Positions 6,990 through 21,286 of a stretch of 64,000 nt of DNA are shown in pieces. Under the pieces are notes generated by a model. The model made no database searches. It worked only from the letters and a program-made list of their open reading frames with translations, and had not been told where the DNA came from. The translations under genes were made by a program, and so were the position numbers. The stretch comes from Pedobacter sp. PACM 27299 (GTDB lineage Bacteria; Bacteroidota; Bacteroidia; Sphingobacteriales; Sphingobacteriaceae), in NCBI RefSeq assembly GCF_001412655.1, contig NZ_CP012996.1, forward strand, positions 4,340,001-4,404,000. The letters are read 5' to 3'. Within the stretch, counting starts at the first letter, position 1; every line of letters starts with the position of its first letter.

Positions 6990-8777
6990 CTAATTGTATC
7001 CTGGATTTTGTTTGAGTACAGATCCCCCACCTACATTGCTCAAATCAATTTGTCGCTGTGGAATCGGGTAAATATCATTTTTACCCTTTATAAATTTTCC
7101 ATTTCTAACATCAGAAGTTAATTTCCCCTGGTAATTAAAATAAGCATTCAGCTCAGTTTCCGCGATTCCCCAGCGTACCAGGTCAAAGAAACGATGACCT
7201 TCCATAGCCAGCTCAATTTTACGCTCAAAATAAATGGCAGATAAAGCATAGTCTTTTCCTTTTCCAGAAAAATCGCCGGCAGGATAAACATTAATTTTAT
7301 AATTTGCTGCAGGTACATTTGAAAACCCTGCTAAAGGATTTCCAGCATCCAGGTATTGATATACCCAGCCCACTGGGTTTGCCGCACGTGCCCTTACTAT
7401 ATCTACATAGTCCTGAGCTTTAACCAGACTTCCTGCCTGTGCTTCGGCCTCCGCAGCCATCAAGAGTACATCAGCAAAACGAATCACCAGATAATTGATA
7501 GAAGAACCTGGCGCCCAGGTTGTTTTATCTTCATCAGTTGCTCGGGTTGCCTGCCAGTAAATATTTTTTTTAGGACCGTACGGACCACCATAACGCTGAT
7601 CTCTGATCCAGGTTTCTCCAGGATAATTGCCCCAGTCTAAATATGGAATCCCACGTCTTCCTGCTGTCCAGTCCAATCGGGGATCTAAAGTTCCCTGGTC
7701 CGGCTGAAAAGGTTCAGCACCTTTAATTCCCATATCATTGGCTACAGCATGGTCATTATAATTGCTCAGGTATGGCAGGCCAGTTTGTTCATCCGTTCTA
7801 TAATGATTGACCAAATCAATAGAAGGCTGAAAAAACCCACAGCAACCAAAAGGACTCTCGCCATAAGGGAAATTCAGCATATCGCCGTTATTTCCTAATG
7901 AAGGACCATTAGCATCTACGTTTGCCGACATCTGAATTGCAAAAACCACTTCGGAATTGTCTTCTTTACTAGGTTTAAAATTATCTGCGAATTCATCATT
8001 CAGTTTGTATTTCTTACCGCTGCTGGTGACTCCTGAAGCGATCACGACATCAAATAAATCTCGTGCTTCCTTAAATTTATGCTGGTACAAATAAGCTTTA
8101 GCGAGGTAAGCCCCTGCTGCCCATTTATTGACTCTGCCAATCTCCGACTGTGTAGGGGGTAAATTCTCGTAAGCAAATTTTAGGTCCTCGGTGATCCTGG
8201 CCCAGATATCGGTATTGTTAGGCTGGTTGTACATGGTGGTGTTCTCATCAATCCAAGGCACCATATTCCACATTTTCTTCAACTCAAAATAATAATGTCC
8301 TCTTAAAAACTTATCCTCAGCCTGGATTCCTACGCGTTCTTCAGGCGTCAGATCCGTCGCCTTAGCTAAAATCATCAAAACATCATTTGTCCTTTTGACC
8401 CCTTCATATAAAGCTCTCCATTTGGCATTGAAAAAGGAGTTTGTCGCATCTGCATAGAATTTAGCAATGGGATCTATTGCTGGCTGATCGGTTCCATCAC
8501 TTCCTTTAGAGGCATCCCCACCGGCAATTGCGCCAAATACCCAATTGCTTGGAGAGCCGCCATAAACATCACCACCACCAAAAGAAGTGTTTCCGCCAGC
8601 CATCCCATCCAGTGCAGCATAAGCACCGATTAATAAACCATTTACTCCGTTTTTATTGGTCAGAATTTCCTGTGTCAAGGATCCCAGGGGCGGTTGTTCT
8701 AATGCTTTCTTGCAAGAAAAAAATGATTGTCCTGTAAAGAATAATACAGTTAACAATAGATATGTTGATTTTTTCAT
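6990..8777 (-). CDS. SusD/RagB family outer-membrane glycan-binding lipoprotein
   Basis: Surface lipoprotein that binds glycan and acts as the lid of its SusC partner. Residues 1-23 form a lipoprotein signal ending in FFSC followed by Lys-Lys. The body has the family layout: an N-terminal TPR-like part (KFLRGHYYFELKKMWNMVPW, WAAGAYLAKAYLYQHKFKEARDLFD) and the C-terminal phrases INYLVIRFADVLLMAAEAEAQAG and RKIELAMEGHRFFDLVRWG, diagnostic for RagB/SusD. Length of 595 is normal. It lies 18 bp downstream of susC in the same transcript. Which glycan it binds is inferred only from the downstream GH20 gene. Confidence 0.96.
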   Translation of the reverse strand: MKKSTYLLLTVLFFTGQSFFSCKKALEQPPLGSLTQEILTNKNGVNGLLIGAYAALDGMAGGNTSFGGGDVYGGSPSNWVFGAIAGGDASKGSDGTDQPAIDPIAKFYADATNSFFNAKWRALYEGVKRTNDVLMILAKATDLTPEERVGIQAEDKFLRGHYYFELKKMWNMVPWIDENTTMYNQPNNTDIWARITEDLKFAYENLPPTQSEIGRVNKWAAGAYLAKAYLYQHKFKEARDLFDVVIASGVTSSGKKYKLNDEFADNFKPSKEDNSEVVFAIQMSANVDANGPSLGNNGDMLNFPYGESPFGCCGFFQPSIDLVNHYRTDEQTGLPYLSNYNDHAVANDMGIKGAEPFQPDQGTLDPRLDWTAGRRGIPYLDWGNYPGETWIRDQRYGGPYGPKKNIYWQATRATDEDKTTWAPGSSINYLVIRFADVLLMAAEAEAQAGSLVKAQDYVDIVRARAANPVGWVYQYLDAGNPLAGFSNVPAANYKINVYPAGDFSGKGKDYALSAIYFERKIELAMEGHRFFDLVRWGIAETELNAYFNYQGKLTSDVRNGKFIKGKNDIYPIPQRQIDLSNVGGGSVLKQNPGYN

Positions 8778-8795
8778 CTCTTTAAACTGTTATGA

Positions 8796-11700
8796 TTAAA
8801 ATTTCAAATTTATACCCAAAAGGAAGGTACGCTGACTTGGGTAAGCACCATCATCCACTCCATAAGCAGTTTGGTTGTCTGTTTCGCTGGAAGTTCCAAT
8901 TTCAGGGTCAATACCAGAATATTTAGTGATGGTGAATAAGTTGGCTGCAGAAAGATAGACCCTCAATCGGCCGACGCCGAATTTCTCCAGCGTTTTCGCG
9001 GGCAGTGTATAACCCACCTGGATATTTTTAAGTCGCAGGTAAGAACCATTCTCTACAAAATAAGAGTTAGGTACTGCATTGGAACTGAATGTTCTATCTT
9101 TTTCCTGAATTGGCGCCTTCGCATTTCTATTGTCAGGAGTCCAGGAATCGTACAGCGCGGTATGACTTTTTGCTCCTCCAAAAGAAGAAGAGAAATCTGT
9201 CCACCATTTTACCTGATTCCAGATAGAGTTTCCTTGTACACCGTAGAAGAACATGCTCATATCGAAATCTTTGTAGTTCATAGCCAGGTTTAAGCCATAA
9301 CTAAAATCAGGATTGGCATTGCCTAGAAAGGTACGGTCGTCCGCATTAATCAGGCCATCACCATTCACATCTTCATACTTGAAACGACCTGGAGCCACCG
9401 CATTCTGGTACACGGAATTGGGATCTGAAGTTTGTTGCTGAACCTTTAAATTTGCCGCATCAATTTCCTCCTGCGACTGCCAGAAACCGGCTACTTTATA
9501 TCCAAAAAACTCACTTACAGAATGTCCAACCTGATTGCGAACGATGTTATTTCCATCAAAACGTCTGGCATCAAGGTCATAATAATTCGCATCACCGGAA
9601 ACTTTTTGGATCAGGTTATTATAGGTCGTAACCGTTGCCGTGGCACTCATTTTAAAATCCTTACCAATCCGCGTATGTCCGGTAATGGACAGATCAAGTC
9701 CATCATTTTTCATCTTTCCAATATTAAGAAAGGGTGTACTTGATGCTCCGGTTGTACCAATCATTTCTGGATTAAACAGGAGGTCAGTAATGTTTTTTCT
9801 ATAGTAATCAGCTGAGATCTCTAATTTACCTTGAAATAAGGTTGCATCAATACCAATATTGGTATTGGTATTTTTTTCCCATTTAGCACCTGGATTTCCG
9901 GTTCTGTTTTTATAAAAACCAGATACTACGTTATTTCCGCCGCCAATGGCATAATAAGAAGGTGCAATATCACTGCTATACGTATCAAATGAATTCCCTT
10001 CCGATACATTGAGCTGGTTACCCATTACTCCCCATCCACCTCTGACTTTTAAATCAGAGATCCATTTTACATCTTTCAGAAAAGATTCCTGAGAAATCCG
10101 CCATCCTGCGCTTACTGCAGGAAACCAGCCATACACATTTTCCAAAAACTTGGAAGAACCATCTCTTCTTAGCGTACCACCAAACAAATACTTATCATTA
10201 AAGTTATAGTCTAAGCGTCCAATTAAGGAGAACATCGCACTGGCAATACGTTCGCTATTGGTATCTTTTGGCCCGCTGCCGGTAGTCAGGTTTGTATAGT
10301 TTGGATCAAAAGAAAAATAACCCCTGTTGCTTCCGCTCATTGTACTGTAACGGTTGCGCAGATATTCTGTACCCACCAATGCTTTCAAACTATGTAAGCC
10401 GAATTGCTTATTGAAGGATAAGGTATTGGTCCAGGTATAATCAAAACTGGCATAAGAAGATTCTGAATAAGAATTGCTCGTATTGTTTTCTGCATTTTCA
10501 TACTGAGGATATACAAAGGCCCGGCTATTCCCATTCGAATTGGAACCACCGAATGAACTTCTCAAAGTAAGTGCTGCAGGAAGATCGGCCTCAATATATA
10601 CGTTACCAAATAGCCGGTTGTCTGTTGCCTTATTGTTTTTGGTTCTGGTAAGCATGGCTACCGGATTAAAGGCATCTCCAAGTGCTCCTCCATAAGAACC
10701 AGCAAAGTTACCCCTGATGTCATATACCGGAATAATCGGCTGCTCTCTAAACGCGTGACCAATGGCATTATCACCGGTTAAACCTCCGATTTTAGGGTTT
10801 GTACTAATGGAATAAGAAAGATTTTCCCCTACCCTCAGTTTTTTACTGATGTTGAATTGTGTGTTGGAACGTAAAGTATATCGCTCCAGATACGTATTCA
10901 TTAACGTTCCCTGCTGGTTAAAATAATTAGCAGAAAGCAGGTAATTCCCCTGGTCAGAGCCACCACTTACCGCCACATTATGACTAGTGATTGGTGCTGG
11001 ACTAAAGATCTCTTCATACCAGTTCGTACCCGTTTTATTGGCACGTGTAATCCGGTAAAACTTTTTGTATTCTGCATCAGAAGTAAAAAATGGGATGACA
11101 TTATAGAGGCTGGGATTTACTGAAGGATCGCCTTCTTTTGCCCCCTTTGGCAGGATATAATCCGGCAATACATACGTCGGACCATTTCCATAAAGATCAT
11201 CATTAAGATTGGTTTCTCCGGAATTGATCAACATCTGGCGTTTTAGTGTAGCCATTTCTGTTGGATTAAGGATATTCCATACATTGCCGGTTTTTGGGCG
11301 CTGCGTACCATAGTAGGCATCATAAGTCACCTGCACTTTTCCCTTTCCTTTTTTAGTGCTGATTACAATCACTCCATTGGCAGCACGGGAGCCATAAATA
11401 GAGGCTGAACCTGCATCTTTTAACACCTGTACAGATTCAATATCATTGGGATTGATATCTGCAACACTTTCCGTTGGCACACCATCTACTACATACAATG
11501 GGCTATTGTTCCCGAAAGTATTGATCCCCCGGATCTTGATCTGAGGCTCTTCTCCTGGTTGTCCGGAACCAAGTACGGTTACACCAGAGGCTTGGCCCTG
11601 TAACAGATTGGCCACTGATGCTGTGGGTTGTTTCAGCATTTCTGAAACGTTAACCACCGATACGGCACCTGTCAGGTCTTTCTTCTTTTGCGTAGAATAG

Positions 11701-12356
11701 CCAACTACGACTACTTCACCTAGAGAAGTGGGTTCTTCAGTTAACTGGACGTTGACTACCGTTTTACCTCCGGCTGCGACTTCCTTAGTCATAAAGCCGA
11801 TATAAGTGAAAACCAGGGTCACATCAGCAGAAACCACATTGATGGCATAATTACCATTTAAATCGGTCATTGCGCCAATTGAAGTCCCTTTTATTTTAAC
11901 ACTCACCCCAGGTAAAGTTTCTCCTTTAACTGAAGTTACCTGTCCTTTAATGATGACCACAGGTTTTTCTACACCTGCTGCTACGGCGGCAAGGCTGCCT
12001 TTGTCATATAATAAAATATGCTGATCTACTACCTTATAGGTAATATTTAGCGGTCCAAGCACCTCTACCAGGATATCTCCCAAACGCCTGTTGACGACAT
12101 TTAAAGAGGTAATCCTTTCAGACCTGATGGCCGAAGGACTATAAATAAACTTCACTTTAGTCAGGCTTTGTATTTCCTGTAAAAGCTGTTTGATTTTACC
12201 TTCGTTAATGTTTATGGAAATTTCTTTGTTGAGTACCCCCTGAGCTTCTGCTTTTTTCGCAAAAGTACTGCAGGTGAATAAGATGACAAGAAATATTTGG
12301 CTTACAGATATTCGCATTGCTGTTATTATTAAAGCAACAAATCGCTTTTTATTCAT
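8796..12356 (-). CDS. SusC/RagA TonB-dependent glycan transporter with STN signalling domain
   Basis: Outer-membrane TonB-linked transporter of 1186 residues. After a signal peptide (about 1-39) there is a secretin/TonB short N-terminal (STN) domain (about 45-120), the part that contacts a FecR protein in transducing receptors. Then follow a carboxypeptidase-like repeat domain (VIIKGQVTSVKGETLPGVSVKIKG), a plug (VSVVNVSEMLKQPTASVANLLQGQ, with the SusC phrases PLYVVDGVP and GSASIYGSRAANGVI) and a barrel ending in FLLGINLKF. Presence of STN fits the upstream anti-sigma and sigma genes: substrate binding would signal through FecR to the ECF sigma factor. It forms the uptake complex with the adjacent SusD. 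Confidence 0.97.
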   Translation of the reverse strand: MNKKRFVALIITAMRISVSQIFLVILFTCSTFAKKAEAQGVLNKEISININEGKIKQLLQEIQSLTKVKFIYSPSAIRSERITSLNVVNRRLGDILVEVLGPLNITYKVVDQHILLYDKGSLAAVAAGVEKPVVIIKGQVTSVKGETLPGVSVKIKGTSIGAMTDLNGNYAINVVSADVTLVFTYIGFMTKEVAAGGKTVVNVQLTEEPTSLGEVVVVGYSTQKKKDLTGAVSVVNVSEMLKQPTASVANLLQGQASGVTVLGSGQPGEEPQIKIRGINTFGNNSPLYVVDGVPTESVADINPNDIESVQVLKDAGSASIYGSRAANGVIVISTKKGKGKVQVTYDAYYGTQRPKTGNVWNILNPTEMATLKRQMLINSGETNLNDDLYGNGPTYVLPDYILPKGAKEGDPSVNPSLYNVIPFFTSDAEYKKFYRITRANKTGTNWYEEIFSPAPITSHNVAVSGGSDQGNYLLSANYFNQQGTLMNTYLERYTLRSNTQFNISKKLRVGENLSYSISTNPKIGGLTGDNAIGHAFREQPIIPVYDIRGNFAGSYGGALGDAFNPVAMLTRTKNNKATDNRLFGNVYIEADLPAALTLRSSFGGSNSNGNSRAFVYPQYENAENNTSNSYSESSYASFDYTWTNTLSFNKQFGLHSLKALVGTEYLRNRYSTMSGSNRGYFSFDPNYTNLTTGSGPKDTNSERIASAMFSLIGRLDYNFNDKYLFGGTLRRDGSSKFLENVYGWFPAVSAGWRISQESFLKDVKWISDLKVRGGWGVMGNQLNVSEGNSFDTYSSDIAPSYYAIGGGNNVVSGFYKNRTGNPGAKWEKNTNTNIGIDATLFQGKLEISADYYRKNITDLLFNPEMIGTTGASSTPFLNIGKMKNDGLDLSITGHTRIGKDFKMSATATVTTYNNLIQKVSGDANYYDLDARRFDGNNIVRNQVGHSVSEFFGYKVAGFWQSQEEIDAANLKVQQQTSDPNSVYQNAVAPGRFKYEDVNGDGLINADDRTFLGNANPDFSYGLNLAMNYKDFDMSMFFYGVQGNSIWNQVKWWTDFSSSFGGAKSHTALYDSWTPDNRNAKAPIQEKDRTFSSNAVPNSYFVENGSYLRLKNIQVGYTLPAKTLEKFGVGRLRVYLSAANLFTITKYSGIDPEIGTSSETDNQTAYGVDDGAYPSQRTFLLGINLKF

Positions 12357-12410
12357 ACCTTTAGAAGTTTTTGTTCGTTAATGTGAAAAGTTTCGTTCAA
12401 AATCATTTTA

Positions 12411-12447
12411 ACTGGCAATGTTCCGCAACATTGTCAGTTTTTTTTTT
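12411..12447 (+). terminator. Hairpin with T-run between fecR and susC genes
   Basis: A 12-bp stem (12411-12422 with 12427-12438, one G-T wobble), a 4-nt loop and ten T on the plus-strand side. Oriented like a terminator for plus-strand RNA, although no plus-strand gene lies upstream. In the sense (minus) direction it lies in the fecR-susC leader without a long U-tract, so it could attenuate or stabilise rather than terminate. Confidence 0.5.
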
Positions 12448-12483
12448 GCCCTGGGCTGCTAGTAAAAGTCTTTCTTTTTCATG

Positions 12484-12514
12484 CGCATTTGGTTTAGGTT
12501 TAGGTTTAGGTTGG
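12484..12514. repeat. Short tandem repeat of TTAGGT type in the fecR-susC spacer
   Basis: Four near-identical six-base units (GGTTTA repeated) lie at about 12489-12513, within the 176-bp gap between the end of the anti-sigma gene and the susC start. On the sense strand they read as AAACCT repeats. Function unknown; they may be a simple slippage tract. Confidence 0.45.
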
Positions 12515-12532
12515 TGAATTAAACAGCCCGGT

Positions 12533-13606
12533 TTAATGGGCGTTACTTTTACTTTTAATGACGATTGTGGTTCCTGAGATCTCATAAGACGCCTTGATGG
12601 CAGCACATAGAAAATCCAGTTTACTGTATAAATTCTGCTCGGTCAGGTCGCCGGTAAACGTGTCCTCCAGCAAGTGCTGATCTGCAATCAGAAATTTGAT
12701 CCCGTATGTCTTTTCCAGCATGGCAACCACCTCCGCAAGTGGTGCATCGTTAAAAGAAAACAGTTCTTTAACTTCCGTTTTAGTCGTGATATGTAAAGGT
12801 TCCGGGTTAGCAACGAGGCTTTGTTCGAAGGTTTGGTCGGCCAGTTTAAACACCGTTTTTTGATTTGGGGTTAAGATCACTTCTTTGCGATGACCCAGAA
12901 TGCTTTCTACCAGCTCCAGTCTGCCGAAAACTGGAGAAACTGCAACTTTTCCAGTTTTCACAGCCACTTCCGTTCCTTTGCTGCTTCCATTTGTGCTCAT
13001 CAGGAAACTGGTTCCTAATACTTTAGTGACCACATCTTTACTGTACACCATAAAAGGCCTGGAGGCATCCGGGCTAATCTCAAAAAAACCTGTGCCTTCC
13101 AGTACGACTTCACGTTTATCTTTCAAAAAATGAACAGGATACTGGATACTTGCATTTGATTCCAGCATCACAAAGCTACCATCCTCAAAGACTACCTTTT
13201 GCGGCTGCTGACCAAGATTCTGCTGCCGTTTAATTTCATTGGATAAGGCTGCAGTCATAAATTGTGGGCTAGCCACCTGCTCTTTAAAGAACAGGTATCC
13301 TGTGATTAAACAAAAGCCAGTGATGGCTGCAGCAATTCCAGACCATAACCAGCGCCTTGAATGCTGGATTTCAGGAAGGGGTTCAGCAACTTCAGAAATA
13401 TCTGTATGAATCCGGTCCCAAAGTTTCTGCTCCAGCGTAGTGATTTCTCTGGGATTGATTTCTTCCAAATCTTCTTTATCCAGCATCCCGTACCATTCTT
13501 CAACAACACGTTTTTCTTCCGCTGTACATTTTCCTTCCAGATACCGATCCAATAAAAGATGAAATGCTTCTCTACTCATTCTTATAGCTTTTAAACTATA
13601 TGTCAA
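12533..13606 (-). CDS. FecR family anti-sigma factor
   Basis: Inner-membrane anti-sigma protein of 357 residues. A cytoplasmic N-terminal sigma-binding part (about 1-85, with the phrase LEGKCTAEEKRVVEEWY) is followed by one transmembrane helix (about 88-110: WLWSGIAAAITGFCLITGYLFF), the FecR domain (about 130-230: RQQNLGQQPQKVVFEDGSFVMLESNASIQYP, VVLEGTGFFEI, VKTGKVAVSP) and the C-terminal DUF4974 domain (FNDAPLAEVVAMLEKTYGIKF), which contacts the STN domain of SusC. It follows the sigma gene by 46 bp. Role: holds the ECF sigma factor inactive until SusC signals substrate. Confidence 0.95.
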   Translation of the reverse strand: MTYSLKAIRMSREAFHLLLDRYLEGKCTAEEKRVVEEWYGMLDKEDLEEINPREITTLEQKLWDRIHTDISEVAEPLPEIQHSRRWLWSGIAAAITGFCLITGYLFFKEQVASPQFMTAALSNEIKRQQNLGQQPQKVVFEDGSFVMLESNASIQYPVHFLKDKREVVLEGTGFFEISPDASRPFMVYSKDVVTKVLGTSFLMSTNGSSKGTEVAVKTGKVAVSPVFGRLELVESILGHRKEVILTPNQKTVFKLADQTFEQSLVANPEPLHITTKTEVKELFSFNDAPLAEVVAMLEKTYGIKFLIADQHLLEDTFTGDLTEQNLYSKLDFLCAAIKASYEISGTTIVIKSKSNAH

Positions 13607-13652
13607 TTAAAGCAGGGCGATCCCTAAAGAAAATTAAAATATATTTTTATGC

Positions 13653-14231
13653 CTATAGAAACAGCAGCACAATTAAAGGGAGTAAGAGGTAATCTTTCAA
13701 ATGAAACCGCATAGATTTAAGCGATTGGGTGATGTGGTATTCTACGGCTTTTTCGGAGATATTGAGTTCCCGGGAGATGTCTTTCACGGAATAATGCTCC
13801 ATTCTACTCAGTTTGAATACTTCGCCGGTTTTTTTTGGCAATCTGGCGATGCCCACATTCAGCGCTTCCGACAATTCATTCAGCATCAATAAATAGTCCG
13901 TATTGGCTACATAATCATTATTGCAGCTTTTCAGATGATCCTGATATTTTGTACGCACCAGCTGTGCCCTGTAATGATTGATAATATTATACTTCAGGCT
14001 CCCAAATAGGTAATTGCTAATCGAAACAATATGGACACTTTCTCTTTTCCTCCAAAGTTCTACAAAAAGGTTTTGTGTGAGCTCTTCTGCCAGTTCCTTA
14101 TGGTGAACCTTCTTAAAAGCGACCTGGAATACCCCTTTCCAATAACGACTATAGATTTCCTGGAATGCACGCTCGCTTCCGTGCTTAAAAAGCACGATCA
14201 ACTCATCATCGGTTAGAATTGAGAGATTCAT
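13653..14231 (-). CDS. ECF sigma-70 factor, Bacteroidota expansion type
   Basis: RNA polymerase sigma factor of 192 residues with region 2 at about 22-90 (FQEIYSRYWKGVFQVAFKKV, ELTQNLFVELWRKRESV) and region 4 at about 125-175 (LPKKTGEVFKLSRMEHYSV, ISRELNISEKAVEYHITQSL). It is the first gene of the locus and its product probably activates its own operon and the susC promoter. An oddity is the C-terminal tail after region 4, YLLLPLIVLLFL, which is strongly hydrophobic and could anchor the protein at the membrane. Such tails occur in some members of this Bacteroidota sigma family. Confidence 0.95.
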   Translation of the reverse strand: MNLSILTDDELIVLFKHGSERAFQEIYSRYWKGVFQVAFKKVHHKELAEELTQNLFVELWRKRESVHIVSISNYLFGSLKYNIINHYRAQLVRTKYQDHLKSCNNDYVANTDYLLMLNELSEALNVGIARLPKKTGEVFKLSRMEHYSVKDISRELNISEKAVEYHITQSLKSMRFHLKDYLLLPLIVLLFL

Positions 14232-14377: not shown

Positions 14378-15304
14378 TTAAAAAGGAAGAGAAACGTGTA
14401 CCATCATACGGTTTCCAGCCTTTGCTCTACCGTCCGCAAGATTCTGTGAACGTACATTCTGATAATTTGCGCCCAGCGTTATTCCTTTCAATGCGAGTTC
14501 CATACCAGCCACTGCAGATAATGAATAACCGCCGGAAACCTGTACGTCATACTTGTTGTTTTCTACATCTTTTTGTGCGGTTTCATACAATACACCAGCA
14601 TTTGGTGCTACCGTTATTTTTTCTGCAATCCGAAACTTATAATAAGCCAGTAAATTAGCCGTCAGCTTATTCCCATAGCGATAATCGTATTTATTTTCCG
14701 TATTCATCTTATAATTGACATTGGCATTTAAACCCAGGTCATTGTAACGGATATCATAAGCTGCATTGAGTGTAAAATCGGTACTGGCCGTACCCAATTG
14801 AAAATTATTAGGTGATTCGCTGACTGCTAAACGTTCTGTCGGTTCATATTTTCCGGTGGGTACTTTTATGCCGCCGCCAATCCAGATCGACTGTACCAAT
14901 AAACGGTCTCCAAGCGTTCCCGTCTGGTCCAGTAATTTATAATACCCCATCAAGGCAATGTCGCCAAGCCCCGTTTTTGTTCCGTTTCCTGTCTGACTAA
15001 CCCGTTCGTTAAAATTATAAGGAAGGAAAGCCAGTACCCTGAATTTAGAACCGAAATTCCATCCTCCCCAAACCTCCATACTCTGATAAGTTTCATCAGC
15101 AGTGATTGGGGTCCTTTCTCCTAAGGGTCCTAAATGAGTCTGCAAGGTTTTATGCTGATACCTTAACCCTATAAAACGCTTATTATATTCCGGCAAAATC
15201 CCAAGGTAATAACTTCCTACACCGCAGCCACAAATGTCACATGCCTTACTTGCAGTGATGATAAACAGCATAAATAGGGTCAGCACTATTGTTTTATTTC
15301 TCAT
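14378..15304 (-). CDS. Outer-membrane beta-barrel protein with CxxCxC N-terminus, MbnP/MbnH-linked
   Basis: Start taken at 15304 because this ATG leads straight into a signal peptide (MRNKTIVLTLFMLFIITASKA) and lies 13 bp after the preceding stop; an upstream in-frame ATG at 15358 would overlap that gene by 41 bp. The mature N-terminus is CDICGCGVG, three close Cys that could bind a metal ion. The rest (about 308 residues in all) alternates as beta-strands typical of an outer-membrane barrel and ends in MVHVSLPF, with a terminal Phe. It is the last gene of the mbnP-mbnH-mbnP-mbnH unit, so a role in passing copper or another substrate across the outer membrane is a reasonable guess. No specific family name is claimed. 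Confidence 0.75.
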   Translation of the reverse strand: MRNKTIVLTLFMLFIITASKACDICGCGVGSYYLGILPEYNKRFIGLRYQHKTLQTHLGPLGERTPITADETYQSMEVWGGWNFGSKFRVLAFLPYNFNERVSQTGNGTKTGLGDIALMGYYKLLDQTGTLGDRLLVQSIWIGGGIKVPTGKYEPTERLAVSESPNNFQLGTASTDFTLNAAYDIRYNDLGLNANVNYKMNTENKYDYRYGNKLTANLLAYYKFRIAEKITVAPNAGVLYETAQKDVENNKYDVQVSGGYSLSAVAGMELALKGITLGANYQNVRSQNLADGRAKAGNRMMVHVSLPF

Positions 15305-15317
15305 TTCTATTTGAATA

Positions 15318-16361
15318 TTATTGTTCTGAAAAGCGTTTATCATTGATAAATACTTCATCGTTCAGCGTTCCTAGGAACGCAGTTAATTTTAATTTGTCTG
15401 TTGCCGATAATACCATCCCCAACCTGCCGTTTTTACGAAGCAGGGGATCAAGATTTGGTGTATCTCTTACTTCAGAATTGTAATGCTCCAACATCCCGTC
15501 CAACGCTAAAAAACGACCATCATGAGTAAAAGGAGCTGTATACTTCAGGTTTCTCAGGGAAGGCACTTTAAACTTATAGCGATCCGTTTCGATCAAAGTA
15601 ACCGCGTATAATCCCTGGTCATTTACAGCACTGGTTCCTAAACCATTGTTTCGAAAAGAGCCATCTGTAAATAAGGGTTCTGAGTGACAGGAAGCACATT
15701 TCTCCTTAAAAAGAACATAACCTTCCTGTTCATCAGCCGTAAAAACCGGACCTTCTTTTCGCATCACCTGATCGTACTTTGAATTACTGCTCACACACAT
15801 CAGCATAAATTGCGACAATGCTTTCATAAACCTGGCAGTAGTCACTTCTTCCGTTCCGAAAGCCTGTTTAAACATGGCGGTATATTTAGGCAGCGCCCTG
15901 ATTTTATTCAAGACATTTTCCAGGTTTTCATCCATTTCCTCATGGGTAGTAATTGGGGTAATTGGCTGAAGATCCAGATCATACACTCCTCCACCCCACA
16001 TAAAGGCTTTACTCCAGGCCAGATTCATGATCGGCGGAGAATTTCTGGTGCCCAAACGGTCGTCGATCCCATGGCTCACATCATGCCCATGCTGTGTAAA
16101 TGCTGCAGATTGAATGTGACAGGAACCACAGCTGATCGTATTGTTTCTGGAAAGCCTTGGCTCATAAAACAAGGCCCTTCCCAGCTCAAAACCTTCCTTG
16201 GTGACCTCATTATTGGCGAAATTATAGACCGGATCAGGGAAATTTGATGGCTTATGAAAACCTAAAAACCTGTCTATTTCTTCTTTAATAGGATGATCCT
16301 TCTTACAAGCCAGAATAAACAAGCCGAATACCAGTAAAACCATCCAATGTTTCTTCCTCAT
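15318..16361 (-). CDS. Di-heme cytochrome c peroxidase family lipoprotein, MbnH-like (copy B)
   Basis: Exported MauG/CcpA-type di-heme protein of 347 residues. The lipoprotein signal (FGLFILAC, then Lys-Lys) suggests membrane anchoring. Two heme c sites are visible: SCGSCHIQ near residue 80 and CASCHSEP near residue 232. The phrases PSLRNLKYTAPFTHDGRF and LGTRNSPPIMNLAWS are typical of the peroxidase family. MbnH of methanotrophs is such a protein and oxidises a Trp of its partner MbnP to kynurenine; here it follows an mbnP gene by 6 bp. Family membership is clear. That it modifies MbnP rather than reducing peroxide is inferred from the gene pairing. Confidence 0.88.
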   Translation of the reverse strand: MRKKHWMVLLVFGLFILACKKDHPIKEEIDRFLGFHKPSNFPDPVYNFANNEVTKEGFELGRALFYEPRLSRNNTISCGSCHIQSAAFTQHGHDVSHGIDDRLGTRNSPPIMNLAWSKAFMWGGGVYDLDLQPITPITTHEEMDENLENVLNKIRALPKYTAMFKQAFGTEEVTTARFMKALSQFMLMCVSSNSKYDQVMRKEGPVFTADEQEGYVLFKEKCASCHSEPLFTDGSFRNNGLGTSAVNDQGLYAVTLIETDRYKFKVPSLRNLKYTAPFTHDGRFLALDGMLEHYNSEVRDTPNLDPLLRKNGRLGMVLSATDKLKLTAFLGTLNDEVFINDKRFSEQ

Positions 16362-16367
16362 CTTCGC

Positions 16368-17219
16368 TTAATTTTCAGTGTGATCGTGCTTAAACATATC
16401 CACATAATTCCCAGCTACCGTGCTGCTAAAATCATTAAACATCACGTTTGGATGTGCGGCAATGCTGAAAGGAGTCTTTCCGTTAAACACCTTCATCAGG
16501 TCTACAAAAAGATGCACATTGCTCTGTCTGTCTTTTCTTACTTTAGCAATTCCCGCAGCATTTAAGTCTATGGTGATCACTTTAATATTATTGATAGTAG
16601 GCACGGAATAACCGCCAAAAAAACCGATATGATATTTAAACTGCTTTTTGCCCGTTGGATCTCCCGTGGCATCATCAGAAATTACGTTAGAATTCCCCTC
16701 ATATTTAAAGAAGATATAGCCGTTGTTCCATCCCCAATACATGCCACCATTCTCATGATCGCCGCCCGCCGCAGGATCTAACACGCCGGTACGCTTATCT
16801 ATAGGCATTGTGCTGCGCAGGCTATCCACGCCTAACGTAAAAGTAACTTTGGTATAATCTCCTTCCGGTACCTGCACCTTCGCAAAGCGGGAGGCTTTAT
16901 CTGCCCCTTTAATCAGGAAATAACTGCTATCCGGATTCACGGTATAGCTTTTACCAGCAGCAGTTTCCACCTTAATATTGCTGATAAAATACTGTAAAAA
17001 AGAAATCGTAAACTCCTCTCCCGCAGCATTTTTATAAGGACTTCCGGTATTGTTTAGCGTGAAAGTTCTGGCGCCAACAATATTATCGAACTCTATAGAT
17101 AATGGAGCTAGATTTGTTTCCTGAAACTCAGGAGTGGGACTGTCTTTTTTGGAACATCCGGCAAAGCCGATGCTTAAAACGGACAATAGGCTTGCTATTT
17201 TGAAGTATGTATTTTTCAT
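16368..17219 (-). CDS. MbnP family lipoprotein, His-rich (copy B)
   Basis: Periplasmic lipoprotein of 283 residues (signal ends FAGC followed by Ser-Lys-Lys). The MbnP pattern is plain: LSIEFDNIVGARTFTLN, then YKNAAGEEFTISFLQYFISNI near the N-terminus, and a central MYWGWNNGYIFFKYEG. The WGW contains the only two Trp of the protein, so either could be the residue oxidised by the partner MbnH. It has six His (in DHEN, YHIG, VHLF, AHPN and the C-terminal KHDH), consistent with copper binding. It is 7 bp downstream of one di-heme gene and 6 bp upstream of another, so it probably works with one or both. Confidence 0.87.
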   Translation of the reverse strand: MKNTYFKIASLLSVLSIGFAGCSKKDSPTPEFQETNLAPLSIEFDNIVGARTFTLNNTGSPYKNAAGEEFTISFLQYFISNIKVETAAGKSYTVNPDSSYFLIKGADKASRFAKVQVPEGDYTKVTFTLGVDSLRSTMPIDKRTGVLDPAAGGDHENGGMYWGWNNGYIFFKYEGNSNVISDDATGDPTGKKQFKYHIGFFGGYSVPTINNIKVITIDLNAAGIAKVRKDRQSNVHLFVDLMKVFNGKTPFSIAAHPNVMFNDFSSTVAGNYVDMFKHDHTEN

Positions 17220-17226
17220 TTTGATT

Positions 17227-18375
17227 TTAATTAGTCGGACCTTGAAGCTTGTTTTTTATAAATTCATGGTCCGTAAGTGTGTTTAAGAAGGCTAGAATGG
17301 CCTTCCTTTCTGTTATTGACATTGGGATACCTGGTTTTCCCTGATCCTGGAACAAGCTGACATCAGTAGTTGAAGACAGCTTGATACCATACTGATAATG
17401 ATCCAGTACTTCTTTCAGTGTCTTGAACCTGCCATCATGCATATAAGGGGCGCTGAGCACTACATTTCTCAGGGAAGGCGTTTTAAATTTCCCTACATCT
17501 GAAGGATTAAAACTGACCCTGAAATGTCCCTGATAAATCCCTTCATTGGCTTCAGAAAAATGATCATCCAAACCATTGTTGTGAAAATTATGGTCGGTAA
17601 ACAGCACTCCGGTATGGCAGCTGCCGCATTTATCCTGAACAAGGTTCATCCCCAGCAACTCCTCCGCATTCAGCACCGTTGATTTTTCCTGACGGATGTA
17701 TTGATCATAGCGGGAATTCCCGGAGATTAACGTCCGCTGAAATTGTGCTAAGGCCTTTACCACATCCGCAGATTTGATTGCTGAGTTAAAAACCTGTTTA
17801 AAGCGGCTGACATAATCTGGCACTGCTTTCAACTCTGCTTCGAGTTCATACAAATCCTGATGCATTTCGTCTGCACTGGTTAAAGGGCCAAAAGCCTGAG
17901 ATTCCAGGTTTTTAGCACCTCCATCCCAGAATAGGCCCTGATCTGCCCAAGCCAGGTTAAACAAAACCGGGGCATGGCGATCCAAAGTTTTCCCAGAAGT
18001 ACCTTGGTTGCTTATGGCCAGGCCATCTGAGAATGCCAGTTCCTGATGGTGACAAGAAGCACAGGAGATCCGGTTATTACCAGACAATCGAACGTCGTAA
18101 AACAACCTCCTACCCAATTCAATTCCTTCTGCTGTGAGTCGGTTATCAGGCTGTTTCATCACTGCAGGGAAGTTTGCAGGACGCGGTAATTCCAGGTCAT
18201 GCAAGCCATCTGGATTCACAAGCTCCGGATCTGACTCCTTTTTACAGGAAACAAATAACAGCAGCAGCAGTATTGCACTGAAAAACGAGGCCTTAATCCC
18301 TGTAAACGATCCGAAAAAAGATCGCTTGAAAAAGCCCTGAAAATCAAGCAGTAGAAAAGTTGAATTACGACGCAT
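17227..18375 (-). CDS. Di-heme cytochrome c peroxidase family protein, MbnH-like (copy A)
   Basis: A 382-residue paralogue of the gene at 15318-16361. Heme sites are SCASCHHQE near residue 105 and CGSCHTGVL near residue 250; TPSLRNVVLSAPYMHDGRF and RHAPVLFNLAWAD are family phrases. The N-terminus is unusual: 25-30 residues (MRRNSTFLLLDFQGFFKRSF...) precede the hydrophobic core that ends in LLLFVSC followed by Lys-Lys, longer than a normal lipoprotein n-region. There is no later ATG before the core, and the chosen start lies 6 bp after the upstream mbnP stop. It pairs with MbnP copy A. Role presumed as for the other copy. Confidence 0.87.
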   Translation of the reverse strand: MRRNSTFLLLDFQGFFKRSFFGSFTGIKASFFSAILLLLLFVSCKKESDPELVNPDGLHDLELPRPANFPAVMKQPDNRLTAEGIELGRRLFYDVRLSGNNRISCASCHHQELAFSDGLAISNQGTSGKTLDRHAPVLFNLAWADQGLFWDGGAKNLESQAFGPLTSADEMHQDLYELEAELKAVPDYVSRFKQVFNSAIKSADVVKALAQFQRTLISGNSRYDQYIRQEKSTVLNAEELLGMNLVQDKCGSCHTGVLFTDHNFHNNGLDDHFSEANEGIYQGHFRVSFNPSDVGKFKTPSLRNVVLSAPYMHDGRFKTLKEVLDHYQYGIKLSSTTDVSLFQDQGKPGIPMSITERKAILAFLNTLTDHEFIKNKLQGPTN

Positions 18376-18381
18376 GATTTA

Positions 18382-19182
18382 TTAATTCACTGCTTTTACG
18401 GTAAACACTTTATTGCTGTAATTGGTGGCTACTGCCGCCATAGCCGAAGCTTGTGCTGCACCTACAACTGGAGTAGTCATGACATCAATCCCATCAAAAG
18501 CCTTTGCCAAATCCACATTTAAGCTAACCCCAGAGCTCTTTTCGCCACTAACTTTCAAAGTCTGTGGCAAATCCAGGACTACTGTTTTGTAGTTTGCATT
18601 TAATCCAGTTTCAATTTTTAAGGTTTTAGAATTGGCGCCCTCAGTGACCTTTCCGGTTGCCGAAGTAAAAATATAGCTGGTCAGCCACATCCAGGAAACA
18701 TTGGTCATCCCGTTCAATGGGGAGAGCTCTCCGGCCAATAAACTCAGGTTATCATTGTATTTCGGATCCACGCCTACCGCGAATTTCAGTGTTTTATAGT
18801 CTCCTGCTTTCAGGTCTTTCAACACCACTTCTTCTCTTTTTGTAGCCGGGTAGACCGTAGTAGGCAGGTCGTTATTTACCCCTGTCAGCGTAATCGTTCC
18901 GGTTTCTTCCAGTAAATAGTAGGAACCGGGCACTTTGAATTCTTCACCATTGGTATTCACCAATACAACATTACTGATCCAATACCTGAATTTATTGAAG
19001 TTGAAAGTTTTTCCCTCAGCAGTAAAATCGGTATTCAATGCAAAATCCTGATTTCCAAACCTTGCATCGAAGCTAAGGGTGGTTTTTCCGTTAGTTTCAA
19101 CGGCATTAATTGGATCTTTATCTTTTGAGCAAGCGCTGAATAGCAATGCTGATACCGTCATTAGGGTAAGTATTTTTTTCAT
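18382..19182 (-). CDS. MbnP family lipoprotein lacking histidine (copy A)
   Basis: A 266-residue lipoprotein (LLFSAC, then Ser-Lys) with the MbnP layout: LSFDARFGNQDFALN, then FNFNKFRYWISNVVLV, KFAVGVD, and the central VSWMWLTSYIF. It keeps a W-x-W at the position of WGW in copy B. In contrast to copy B it contains no His at all and ends without a His tail, so it should not bind copper the same way. First gene of the five-gene unit (copy A MbnP, MbnH, copy B MbnP, MbnH, barrel), with a 126-bp gap upstream that could hold a promoter. The pair probably arose by duplication followed by divergence. Confidence 0.83.
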   Translation of the reverse strand: MKKILTLMTVSALLFSACSKDKDPINAVETNGKTTLSFDARFGNQDFALNTDFTAEGKTFNFNKFRYWISNVVLVNTNGEEFKVPGSYYLLEETGTITLTGVNNDLPTTVYPATKREEVVLKDLKAGDYKTLKFAVGVDPKYNDNLSLLAGELSPLNGMTNVSWMWLTSYIFTSATGKVTEGANSKTLKIETGLNANYKTVVLDLPQTLKVSGEKSSGVSLNVDLAKAFDGIDVMTTPVVGAAQASAMAAVATNYSNKVFTVKAVN

Positions 19183-19308: not shown

Positions 19309-19698
19309 TTAAGAATAAATGAAAAAGATGCTGGGAGGCGGGTGAGGAATCTCGTTATTGCTTTCCGGAAGATCAAAAGAAAACTCGCCAGGAAATTCAG
19401 GCGTTTTTAAACAAAGCGGAAGCAGAGGCAAATCAATTGCTTTCACAAAGAAAACATCCTGTGCGTTTTTCTTTTGTGCATCTCTTTCCTGTTTCTTTTC
19501 TTTTTCCTCTGCCTGTTTCAGCTTTTTAGCGAGGTAACATTTACCATTGCAGTGCATGGCTGGCTTGTCTTTATTTTCACAAAGAACCGTCGCAATGTAC
19601 TGCTGATTGAGCTCAAACCCCGCGTATACGAAAACCCTGCTGAACTGTGCCAGCAATAAGGTCATCAATAAAACAATTGCGGTAAAGCGTTTAGGCAT
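19309..19698 (-). CDS. Small membrane-anchored protein with C-x9-C-x3-C motif (copy 1)
   Basis: 129 residues: an N-terminal hydrophobic signal or anchor (about 5-22), then FELNQQYIATVLCENKDKP with the motif C-x9-C-NGK-C-Y-L, a Lys/Glu/Gln-rich helix (KKLKQAEEKEKKQERDAQKK) and a Pro-rich C-terminus with HPPPS. The three close Cys suggest metal or redox function in the periplasm. It starts 4 bp after the SCO gene, so it is cotranscribed with it. A paralogue lies at 20903-21286. I do not recognise a named family; a copper or cytochrome-oxidase assembly role is inferred from the SCO and MbnP neighbours only. Confidence 0.75.
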   Translation of the reverse strand: MPKRFTAIVLLMTLLLAQFSRVFVYAGFELNQQYIATVLCENKDKPAMHCNGKCYLAKKLKQAEEKEKKQERDAQKKNAQDVFFVKAIDLPLLPLCLKTPEFPGEFSFDLPESNNEIPHPPPSIFFIYS

Positions 19699-19702
19699 CT
19701 AC

Positions 19703-20341
19703 TTATTTTTTATACTCTTTTAACAGAATATCCATATCAGACATCAACTGCTGTACATCCTTGTCCAGCGTTCCGTCATAAGCCCCTCTGATGCGTTTTT
19801 CTTTGTCTACCAGCACCAGGTATCCCTGATGGATAAAACCGCCGGGTGCATTCTTATCTTCTTGTGCGGAAACCAGGTAATTACGTTCCGCAAGGGCATA
19901 AATATCATCCCTGCTGCCCCATAAATACTCCCATTTCGTACCGTCAACACCTAACTTTTTCGCGTAAGCTTTCATTCTGGAAGGGGTATCATATTTCACG
20001 TCAATGGTATGGGAAGCCAGTTTAACTTCGGGATTGCCTTTATACTTTTCATACACTTTCATTAAATTCCGGTGCATGGTGGGGCATATCGTCGGACAGG
20101 AGGTAAAAAAGAAATCGGCCACATAAATCGCTCCATTGAAGTCTTTCTCTGTCACCACCGTACTGTCCTGATTGAAGAGTTTAAAGGCAGGAATCGTTCT
20201 AAAAATGCTATCTATCACCGTTTTGCCATCGACCACCCGCTCTGTTTGTTCCAACTGCAGAAAAGGCAACCTTTTCGGTTGGTCTTTACAGCTAGAAAGA
20301 AACAAGGCAGCGAGGGTCAGGCCAGCTAAAATTCCCCTCAT
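19703..20341 (-). CDS. SCO1/SenC family copper-binding thioredoxin-fold lipoprotein
   Basis: 212-residue lipoprotein (signal ends LFLSSC, then Lys) with a thioredoxin fold. The copper ligands of the SCO family are present: the two Cys of SCPTICP within DFFFTSCPTICPTMHRNL, and the later His in ASHTIDVKYD. SCO proteins deliver copper or keep thiols reduced during assembly of the CuA site of cytochrome oxidases. Start codon overlaps the stop of the upstream small lipoprotein by one base (TAATG), showing translational coupling. A close paralogue lies at 35942-36595 next to a cytochrome c. Confidence 0.95.
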   Translation of the reverse strand: MRGILAGLTLAALFLSSCKDQPKRLPFLQLEQTERVVDGKTVIDSIFRTIPAFKLFNQDSTVVTEKDFNGAIYVADFFFTSCPTICPTMHRNLMKVYEKYKGNPEVKLASHTIDVKYDTPSRMKAYAKKLGVDGTKWEYLWGSRDDIYALAERNYLVSAQEDKNAPGGFIHQGYLVLVDKEKRIRGAYDGTLDKDVQQLMSDMDILLKEYKK

Positions 20342-20775
20342 TACTTTTTGAATTTACTGAAGTAAGCTTCCGATGATTTGATCTCTTTTTTATAAAGGCT
20401 GTCGACTGCCACAATCTTTGCTTTTTCCGCCTGGAAATACTGGATGGCTTCCTCATTTGATTTACCGGTAATATCCGGCTCAAATTTATGCATCCAATCG
20501 TTCATACTGTCTTCAGCAACCGTCAGCTCCTTCAAAAGCGCCTTGATATTTTCCTTTTCTTTCAGCGTATCGATTTCAGGAAATTTGGTTTTCAAATCTG
20601 CCATATTCCGCTGTAACGTATCTAGTTTCATTTGATAGTTTACAATCGTACTATGATCGCCCATAACCAGGTCATGAAATTTCATGACTTCATCGCGTTC
20701 TTTTTTATAATCAACAGGGGCCGTGCAGGCCATAGCAGTAATTGCCAGTAGCATTGCGCCAACTAATTTCTTCAT
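20341..20775 (-). CDS. Small hypothetical lipoprotein, helical
   Basis: Start placed at 20775 (MKKLVGAM), which gives a proper lipoprotein signal ending TAMAC; a longer form from 20841 would put 22 residues before it. The mature part of about 125 residues is highly charged and probably a helical bundle (NYQMKLDTLQRNMADLKTKF, ENIKALLKELTVAEDSMNDW), with no Cys beyond the lipobox and no recognised domain. It overlaps the SCO start by one base, so both are made from one transcript, and a role next to SCO in copper or oxidase assembly is likely but unproven. Confidence 0.75.
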   Translation of the reverse strand: MKKLVGAMLLAITAMACTAPVDYKKERDEVMKFHDLVMGDHSTIVNYQMKLDTLQRNMADLKTKFPEIDTLKEKENIKALLKELTVAEDSMNDWMHKFEPDITGKSNEEAIQYFQAEKAKIVAVDSLYKKEIKSSEAYFSKFKK

Positions 20776-20902
20776 TTTTACTCTTTTAAAAGACACCAAA
20801 ATATTAAGCGCGTCAAAAACAGCGCATTCCCAAAAAGGCATAAAAAGGCGGAAACCCGATTATCAAAAACCAGTATTCGCTTTTTATCCTAAAATTTGTT
20901 AA

Positions 20903-21286
20903 TTATACTGGAAATTGTGGAGGGTGGAAAATGGCATTTAGCAGCTCCTGCGGCATTCCGGTAGAAACGGGAACATGTAAGGTAATTTCCGCAAAAGCAT
21001 ATTGTTTGAATACAAATGGATTTACTACGAGTGCATCTTGAATTTGTGTTTTCTGTGCTTGTCTTTCCTGCTTTTGTTCTTTGTCTTGCGCTTGTTTTAA
21101 CTTTTTCATTAAATAGCACTTCCCATTACATTGCAGCTGGGGTTTATCTTTATTCACACAGAGTTCGGCAGCGATATAACGCTGATTCATCTCAAAACCA
21201 GCAAATACAAAGGCATTGGCAAAGTTTACAGTAAGTAAACTGAACAAAAGCAATATGGCTGTTGGTTTGATTAACATCTGGCGCAA
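20903..21286 (-). CDS. Small membrane-anchored protein with C-x9-C-x3-C motif (copy 2)
   Basis: 127-residue paralogue of the protein at 19309-19698: hydrophobic N-terminus (AILLLFSLLTVNFANAF), then FEMNQRYIAAELCVNKDKP, the C-x9-C-NGK-C-Y-L motif, a Lys/Gln-rich helix (KKLKQAQDKEQKQERQAQ) and a C-terminal FHPP. An ATG three codons later (21277) is an equally good start. It lies upstream of the lipoprotein-SCO pair, separated from it by about 130 bp. The same strand and the paralogy suggest a shared pathway. Family name not recognised. Confidence 0.75.
   Translation of the reverse strand: MRQMLIKPTAILLLFSLLTVNFANAFVFAGFEMNQRYIAAELCVNKDKPQLQCNGKCYLMKKLKQAQDKEQKQERQAQKTQIQDALVVNPFVFKQYAFAEITLHVPVSTGMPQELLNAIFHPPQFPV

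Follow-up and report, generated by a model that had tools for sequence, protein, structure and literature searches.

A doubled MbnP-MbnH locus in Pedobacter with the residues of the known Cu(I) site in only one of its two branches

The closest described relatives of the system considered here are MbnP and MbnH of M. trichosporium (PDB 7L6G and 6E1C). Manesis et al. reportedly found in 2021 that Met, His and kynurenine (Kyn) form the Cu(I) site of MbnP 7L6G. In the soil bacterium Pedobacter sp. PACM 27299, a single genome of 6.15 Mb in one contig (NZ_CP012996.1), two MbnP-MbnH pairs, here called A and B, stand in tandem instead, and the MbnB family (PF05114) has no match anywhere in the genome, on which ground a methanobactin operon was ruled out. 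In the window, the stretch of 64,000 nt whose coordinates are used throughout, the minus-strand order is MbnP-A (18382..19182, 266 aa), MbnH-A (17227..18375, 382 aa), MbnP-B (16368..17219, 283 aa), MbnH-B (15318..16361, 347 aa) and a probable outer-membrane barrel (14378..15304), with gaps of 6, 7 and 6 bp among the first four genes. Both P proteins are lipoprotein-like and have one WxW each; MbnP-A is of the WMW type and holds no His, and MbnP-B is of the canonical GMYWGW type (WGW) and holds six His, with an FKHDHTEN end. The original prediction for this stretch had given these coordinates, strand, order and gaps, the His contents with the KHDH end, a W-x-W in both proteins and a barrel with CDICGCG directly after MbnH-B, all of which proved exact. 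In contrast to M. trichosporium MbnP/MbnH, MbnP-A lacks the copper His, both window pairs score below the TIGR04052 and TIGR04039 cut-offs, and each window P protein has a single Cys, hence no four-Cys motif. Overall, we think it fairly probable that the locus encodes two partner-specific Trp-oxidising branches, of which only B has the known Cu(I) site.

Three other described systems resemble parts of this locus. MopE/CorA of methanotrophs, found with SACCP/CorB, is according to PMC3912023 a copper-repressible protein with Kyn near Cu(I) and an adjoining di-heme cytochrome; its site, however, consists of two His and Kyn rather than Met/His, and the likeness is one of description. MauG belongs to the same di-heme superfamily, and MbnH-A has a Tyr in the presumed ligand column, the distal Gln/Pro/Glu and the inter-heme Trp, but the substrate of MauG differs and the window H proteins score 185.5 and 190.3 bits against the MauG cut-off of 443.85 bits. 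CutF and CruR, as described in PMC9973294 and PMC9426467, share with two small open reading frames (ORFs) of the window a short exported-looking sequence, a Cys motif, a C-terminal Pro-Pro and a position at the head of copper-related genes, whereas neither window ORF matches DUF2946 and both have HPP instead of RAPP. Titles and abstract openings listed by searches of the open library mention no His-less or tandem MbnP pair; the main 2021 PNAS paper on the family lies outside this coverage, and a prior mention there is possible.

All four proteins score far above the Pfam cut-offs. MbnP-A and MbnP-B match PF20243 with E-values of 1.5e-37 and 5.9e-46 (129.8 and 157.2 bits, gathering cut-off 27) and are its only matches in the whole genome, and MbnH-A and MbnH-B match PF03150 (CCP_MauG) with 1.3e-55 and 1.1e-52, as two of the seven PF03150 rows of the genome. 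The profile searches therefore place the pairs in the expected families and not in unrelated ones, and the strength of these matches, together with the recurrence of the arrangement in many genomes, shows that the doubled module goes beyond chance. NCBI's narrower models match below their curated cut-offs (TIGR04052, the MbnP equivalog, 43.3 and 36 bits against 140; TIGR04039, for MbnH, 242.2 bits for MbnH-A and 199.3 for MbnH-B against 362.85), and thus the window P and H proteins are a divergent form. For the predicted fold of both P proteins, PDB 7L6G, the only MbnP structure found in the profile and fold searches, is the sole significant match, which points to the MbnP fold. A profile of canonical proteins also retrieved 7L6G from the PDB, and PDB searches with single sequences and with an A-type profile gave no credible relative. 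Both P proteins combine WxW with an adjoining MbnH-like gene.

The two P proteins part at the copper-site columns. The GMxWxW and HVG motifs of 7L6G align with M160/W162/W164 (M160-Y-W162-G-W164, 16728..16742) and with H197 (16629..16631) of MbnP-B; we take the Met before WxW and the His of HxG to be the MbnP copper ligands. Rows shorter than 220 aa and exact duplicates were dropped from the P alignments. The canonical set of 150 distinct rows, to which MbnP-B belongs, retains the GMxWxW Met in 146 (4 have Leu) and the HxG His in all (18/18 and 150/150 for the H197 column). In the 85 distinct A-type rows, by contrast, the His column holds Glu in 80 and Asp in 5, E191 (18610..18612) being the residue of MbnP-A, and the Met column holds V in 40, I in 27, D in 11, E in 3, S in 2, L in 1 and T in 1, with Met in 0/85. 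The classes were set by a regular expression for WxW, so that the Trp residues and WMW (W164-M165-W166, 18685..18693) are invariant by construction; the His column was not used. MbnP-B thus carries both residues expected of the Cu(I) site and MbnP-A neither: as judged from the alignments, B is a normal MbnP at these columns, and A is an MbnP by fold and profile that lacks the Cu(I)-site residues.

The A type has conserved features of its own. R66, W68, R116, N143, E152, N195 and M248 are found in 85/85 A rows; the W68 column has F, Y, V, I or R in the canonical rows and Trp in none of the 150. The RYW motif, which is independent of the class definition, accompanies WMW in 98/98 cases and occurs in 0/168 other P proteins. 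The original prediction had opposed a His-rich to a His-free protein, which does not hold as a conserved contrast: the 85 distinct A-type proteins carry from 0 to 6 His, with none in 18, and zero His was accordingly rejected as the key A trait in favour of the replacement of one specific His by Glu/Asp. A further MbnP kind with YSD or YTN instead of WxW was seen in Dyadobacter (L127:458-1279, L128:418-1287, L133:323-1234 and L137:326-1237); it has Gln at the copper His, as judged by eye, and its own MbnH directly downstream, and these loci also carry a canonical pair and an A pair.

Both H proteins have two CxxCH hemes besides the PF03150 match, as is characteristic of di-heme MbnH/MauG-like enzymes. 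The H alignment leaves out duplicates and rows below 280 aa (two of them A-type); among the dropped rows are split copies, e.g., from L045 and L150. All 80 distinct MbnH-A rows retain the first CxxCH and the two Cys of the second, together with the inter-heme Trp and distal Gln, Pro and Glu, and 79/80 retain the second-heme His; the 117 B-type rows have the inter-heme Trp in 115, the distal Gln in 47, Pro in 73 and Glu in 117. The functions of the distal Gln/Pro/Glu columns are presumably those they have in MauG-type enzymes. Tyr occupies the column of the 6E1C 'DIY' in 79/79 MbnH-A rows with a letter there and in 116/117 B types; this is the presumed column of the 6c-heme ligand, and the bCcP reference 1IQC ended before it. 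Roles of the inter-heme Trp and of the Tyr in MauG are given in PMC6405878. MbnH-A appears to keep every catalytic residue that was checked. In a separate set of loci, termed D-type (e.g., L066, L068 and L074), W[EQ]W-type MbnPs have MbnH partners with Ser for the HDG His (16/16) and Phe, Met or Leu for the Tyr (16/16), and YtkA-like and TonB-receptor-like genes adjoin in the loci examined. In those loci a CutF-like ORF stands ahead of a protein matching YtkA (2/3 tested) and of a long ORF that weakly matches TonB Plug (1/2 tested).

Phylogeny and covariation argue for two separate enzyme-substrate branches. From 252 classed pairs that include an H protein, 150 P rows were selected (64 A, 86 canonical), and in their quick-search tree a single branch with support 100 separates A from canonical proteins; because the two types are the two sides of one branch, a recent tandem duplication within this genome was rejected. 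Of the named relatives in the tree, Pedobacter polysacchareus comes closest (97% for MbnP-A). The tree of the H partners needs two changes, and its best split matches the P split in 149/150 rows, the exception being L170 (Echinicola), which has a long branch. Across 66 loci that hold one A pair and a canonical pair, partial distance correlations were 0.675 for PA-HA and 0.782 for PB-HB (0 of 500 permutations as high in both cases), 0.207 for PA-HB (1 of 500) and 0.043 for PB-HA (133 of 500). This covariation supports partner specificity without proving it, because shared ancestry or the transfer of adjacent genes as units could contribute. Ratios of nonsynonymous to synonymous substitution rates (dN/dS) were computed against the three relatives with dS <1.5, in the order L093, L104 and L094, three more being saturated or undefined and unused; they are 0.071, 0.116 and 0.087 for PA, 0.177, 0.113 and 0.113 for HA, 0.015, 0.028 and 0.033 for PB, and 0.046, 0.031 and 0.036 for HB. 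Both pairs are under purifying selection, and the A pair is constrained less tightly than the B pair.

PF20243 was matched in 106 of 201 genomes of the same family, of which 60 stretches chosen from the listed matches and 30 short loci were read. An A-type gene was found in the window and in 18 of the 60 stretches, each time with a canonical P in the same locus, and thus in at least 19 of 201 genomes; sister genomes (e.g., L051, L053 and L054) have the same locus with a single canonical pair only, so that the A pair is present or absent as a unit. A wider scan of one genome per species (84,980 species), seeded with two short peptide patterns, one with WMW and one with RYW, gave 103 loci, of which 80 were kept, holding 83 A genes across Bacteroidota. 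An own H lies directly downstream of 76 of these genes, a canonical P is in the locus of 74, and a canonical P with its own H in that of 73. Counting unclassed proteins, the other MbnP is downstream only for 37/41 A genes in Sphingobacteriaceae, and upstream only for 9/11 in Flavobacteriaceae and 11/12 in Spirosomataceae; the A-canonical partnership persists despite the changed gene order. The two-branch system is real and recurrent. Across the phylum the A type is rare: in a phylum sample PF20243 occurred in 97/395 genomes, and the A pattern stood at an MbnP place only in the genome of the window; a phylum-wide count of WMW was discarded, since it matched 17/395 genomes but, besides the window's own, none of its 18 places was at a listed PF20243 place. 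Spread of MbnP-A by plasmid or phage was also rejected: phages gave no match, and the one plasmid hit, in Deinococcus, is distant (28.6% identity). Four A-type MbnPs are orphans with no MbnH of their own (L099:4140-4934, L157:5962-6729, L160:5962-6729 and L163:5917-6765), three of them ~3 kb from another MbnP and the fourth, L163, ~12 kb from the doubled locus L159.

The genes upstream of the pairs suggest a copper setting. On the same strand, MbnP-A is preceded in order by a small Cys-rich ORF (20903..21286, 127 aa, C-terminal HPPQ, 61 nt before the next gene), a small lipoprotein-like protein that is a recurrent SCO neighbour and belongs to no Pfam family above cut-off (20341..20841), an SCO1/SenC-family lipoprotein-like protein (19703..20341; PF02630, 1.4e-24), and another small Cys-rich ORF that heads the MbnP-MbnH genes (19309..19698, 129 aa, C-terminal HPPP, gap 126 nt). 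Both small ORFs have three conserved Cys and, by eye, a hydrophobic N-terminus. PMC9973294 describes CutF-like ORFs as shorter than 150 aa, with Pro-Pro in the last 15 residues and a same-strand downstream gene within 1000 nt, as is the case for both window ORFs, and reports them to be common in Bacteroidota, mostly ahead of copper genes. According to PMC9426467, CruR switches off a TonB receptor operon in the presence of copper, and relatives of CruR are also found ahead of MbnPH-like genes. A 2025 survey (PMC12992588) counts Bacteroidota with the groups that lack RAPP/RGPP leaders ahead of copper genes; the CutF-like ORFs found here end mostly in HPP, QPP or RPP. We gathered 192 distinct relatives with a profile of the same family (score >60), a selection to which their conservation is partly due. 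All 192 have CxxxC, 191 have Pro-Pro in the last 25 residues, and in 189 of these 191 the CxxxC lies 62 to 73 residues before the C-terminal Pro-Pro; three Cys, one Gly and two Pro are kept in at least 99%. The combination of CxxxC and Pro-Pro is found in 0/246 P, 2/241 H, 0/131 barrel, 0/58 SCO and 0/41 lipoprotein sequences. In Bacteroidota these ORFs head MbnP, lipoprotein-SCO and TonB-receptor-like genes, and the gap after them has a median of 137.5 nt (n=164), compared with 4 nt for the P-to-H spacing (n=341), gaps above 500 being excluded. Because of the Cys motif, the Pro-Pro end and the long gap, the small Cys ORFs fit CutF-like leader ORFs and are a strong clue to a copper setting; together with the SCO protein they suggest copper control of the locus. 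The TonB-receptor-like neighbour seen in related loci also fits a setting of this type.

Taken together, these data are consistent with the following mechanism. Two partner-specific MbnH-MbnP pairs would act side by side at the cell envelope. MbnH-B would oxidise W162 of MbnP-B to kynurenine, completing a Cu(I) site of Met160, His197 and Kyn162, and MbnH-A, with its catalytic residues intact, would oxidise MbnP-A, most likely at W164; conversion of Trp to Kyn by the window enzymes is inferred from the M. trichosporium system. MbnP-A would not form that Cu(I) site, because Glu/Asp replaces the copper His, and it probably serves another purpose than holding copper in the known way. Rather than a second copper store, it may be a non-identical helper to the copper branch, by redox work or hand-over or through a site for something else than Cu(I); this role is inferred only. 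Of the two-branch reading in the original prediction, the separate branches, the copper residues of B, the missing His of A and the copper-type setting stood on sequence evidence, and the Trp modification and metal binding of these proteins are predicted. Several observations count against the mechanism. Seven of 83 A genes have no H of their own, L116 at a contig end among them, and nine have no canonical P in the locus: L116, L117, L136, L151 and L168 stand at contig ends, an unclassed MbnP is present in L169, and an H with a barrel lies upstream in L125; L163 shares a contig with the doubled locus L159, which leaves L142 as a plain exception. Neither the P nor the H proteins attain the curated NCBI cut-offs. 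Occurrence of the A type is patchy (at least 19/201 genomes in the family sample, 1/395 in the phylum sample), the PA-HB correlation is weak but non-zero, and MbnH-A is split in L045 (G142) and L150, where MbnP-A reads on and the canonical pair is present, either by enzyme loss or by sequencing error. Finally, M159 (five residues before W164), M165 and M248 are invariant in 85/85 A rows, and a Met ligand may be retained at a shifted position, the invariant NGM of the A type sitting three residues further from the Trp than the canonical Met.

These Met residues are also the basis of a different explanation, in which MbnP-A is still a copper protein with other ligands (the shifted M159, M165 and M248 and/or Glu/Asp, plus Kyn164) and what sets the pairs apart is affinity or a preference for Cu(I) or Cu(II). 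The invariance of M165 is by class construction, yet RYW defines the same set, and the operon context of copper type agrees with this explanation as well; however, the His of the known site is replaced in 85/85 rows and Glu/Asp is a poor Cu(I) ligand, and we consider such a site unlikely. It is quite unlikely that MbnH-A makes a different product on MbnP-A, such as a Trp-Trp, Trp-Tyr or Trp-Met link for copper-free redox work, as kynurenine is to our knowledge the only known MbnH product and closeness of W68 to W164 finds no support. Such a link would nevertheless account for W68 of RYW (85/85 A, 0/150 canonical) standing alongside WMW and the invariant Y67/Y170, and MauG itself cross-links two Trp according to PMC6405878 and PMC3912023. 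The patchy presence of the A pair and the split HA genes in L045 and L150 would be expected of a decaying duplicate without its own function; this was rejected as highly improbable, given dN/dS values of 0.07 to 0.18 for the A genes, residues invariant across several families, and distal Gln and Pro of MbnH-A in 80/80 rows versus 47 and 73 of 117 in MbnH-B types. Returning to two partner-specific branches, a more specific version can be offered tentatively: an anciently split Bacteroidota MbnP-MbnH branch may make a different Trp-derived site, either Trp/Tyr/Met-linked or kynurenine, with a carboxylate for the copper His, and act as a Cu(I)-free redox or hand-over partner of the adjoining MbnP.

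The barrel has CDICGCG at its likely mature N-terminus. Its longest ORF overlaps MbnH-B by 41 bp; a start at the ATG at 15304, which immediately precedes the hydrophobic stretch, is likelier and gives a gap of 13 bp. Of 102 distinct relatives, 94 have CxxCGC near the start and the other 8 have CxxC; the window barrel itself gives weak Pfam matches only, 1 of 21 scanned relatives matches Phenol_MetA_deg, and a profile search of the PDB returned no relative at E <= 1. A barrel of this kind is also found after single canonical pairs, and for this reason it is part of the core module rather than of the A pair. The proposal that the system has its own outer-membrane outlet is left unproven by this distribution and by the lack of a solved relative in the profile search. 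A simple lipobox rule fits 78/89 A-type and 132/150 canonical P proteins, and 63/82 A-type and 73/145 canonical H proteins. From the first CutF-like ORF through the barrel the genes look like one nine-gene unit, with a terminator-like site at 21354-21329 upstream (12 such sites were found, with 7.8 expected by chance and a standard deviation of 3.2). Directly downstream, at 6990-14231, SusD, a SusC-type TonB receptor, a FecR anti-sigma and an ECF (extracytoplasmic function) sigma factor are probably a separate uptake unit.

The doubled locus bears on how this family is annotated and understood. Named A-type relatives are labelled, e.g., 'MbnP family protein' or 'Copper-binding protein MbnP-like domain', yet in 85/85 of the examined A-type proteins another residue stands in place of the copper His. 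If MbnH-A still rebuilds its Trp, the chemistry would be broader than copper binding. The tandem pairs offer a natural control within one operon, with the same fold and an own enzyme for each protein, with versus without the copper ligand, and because of this built-in control the purpose of kynurenine would be directly testable.

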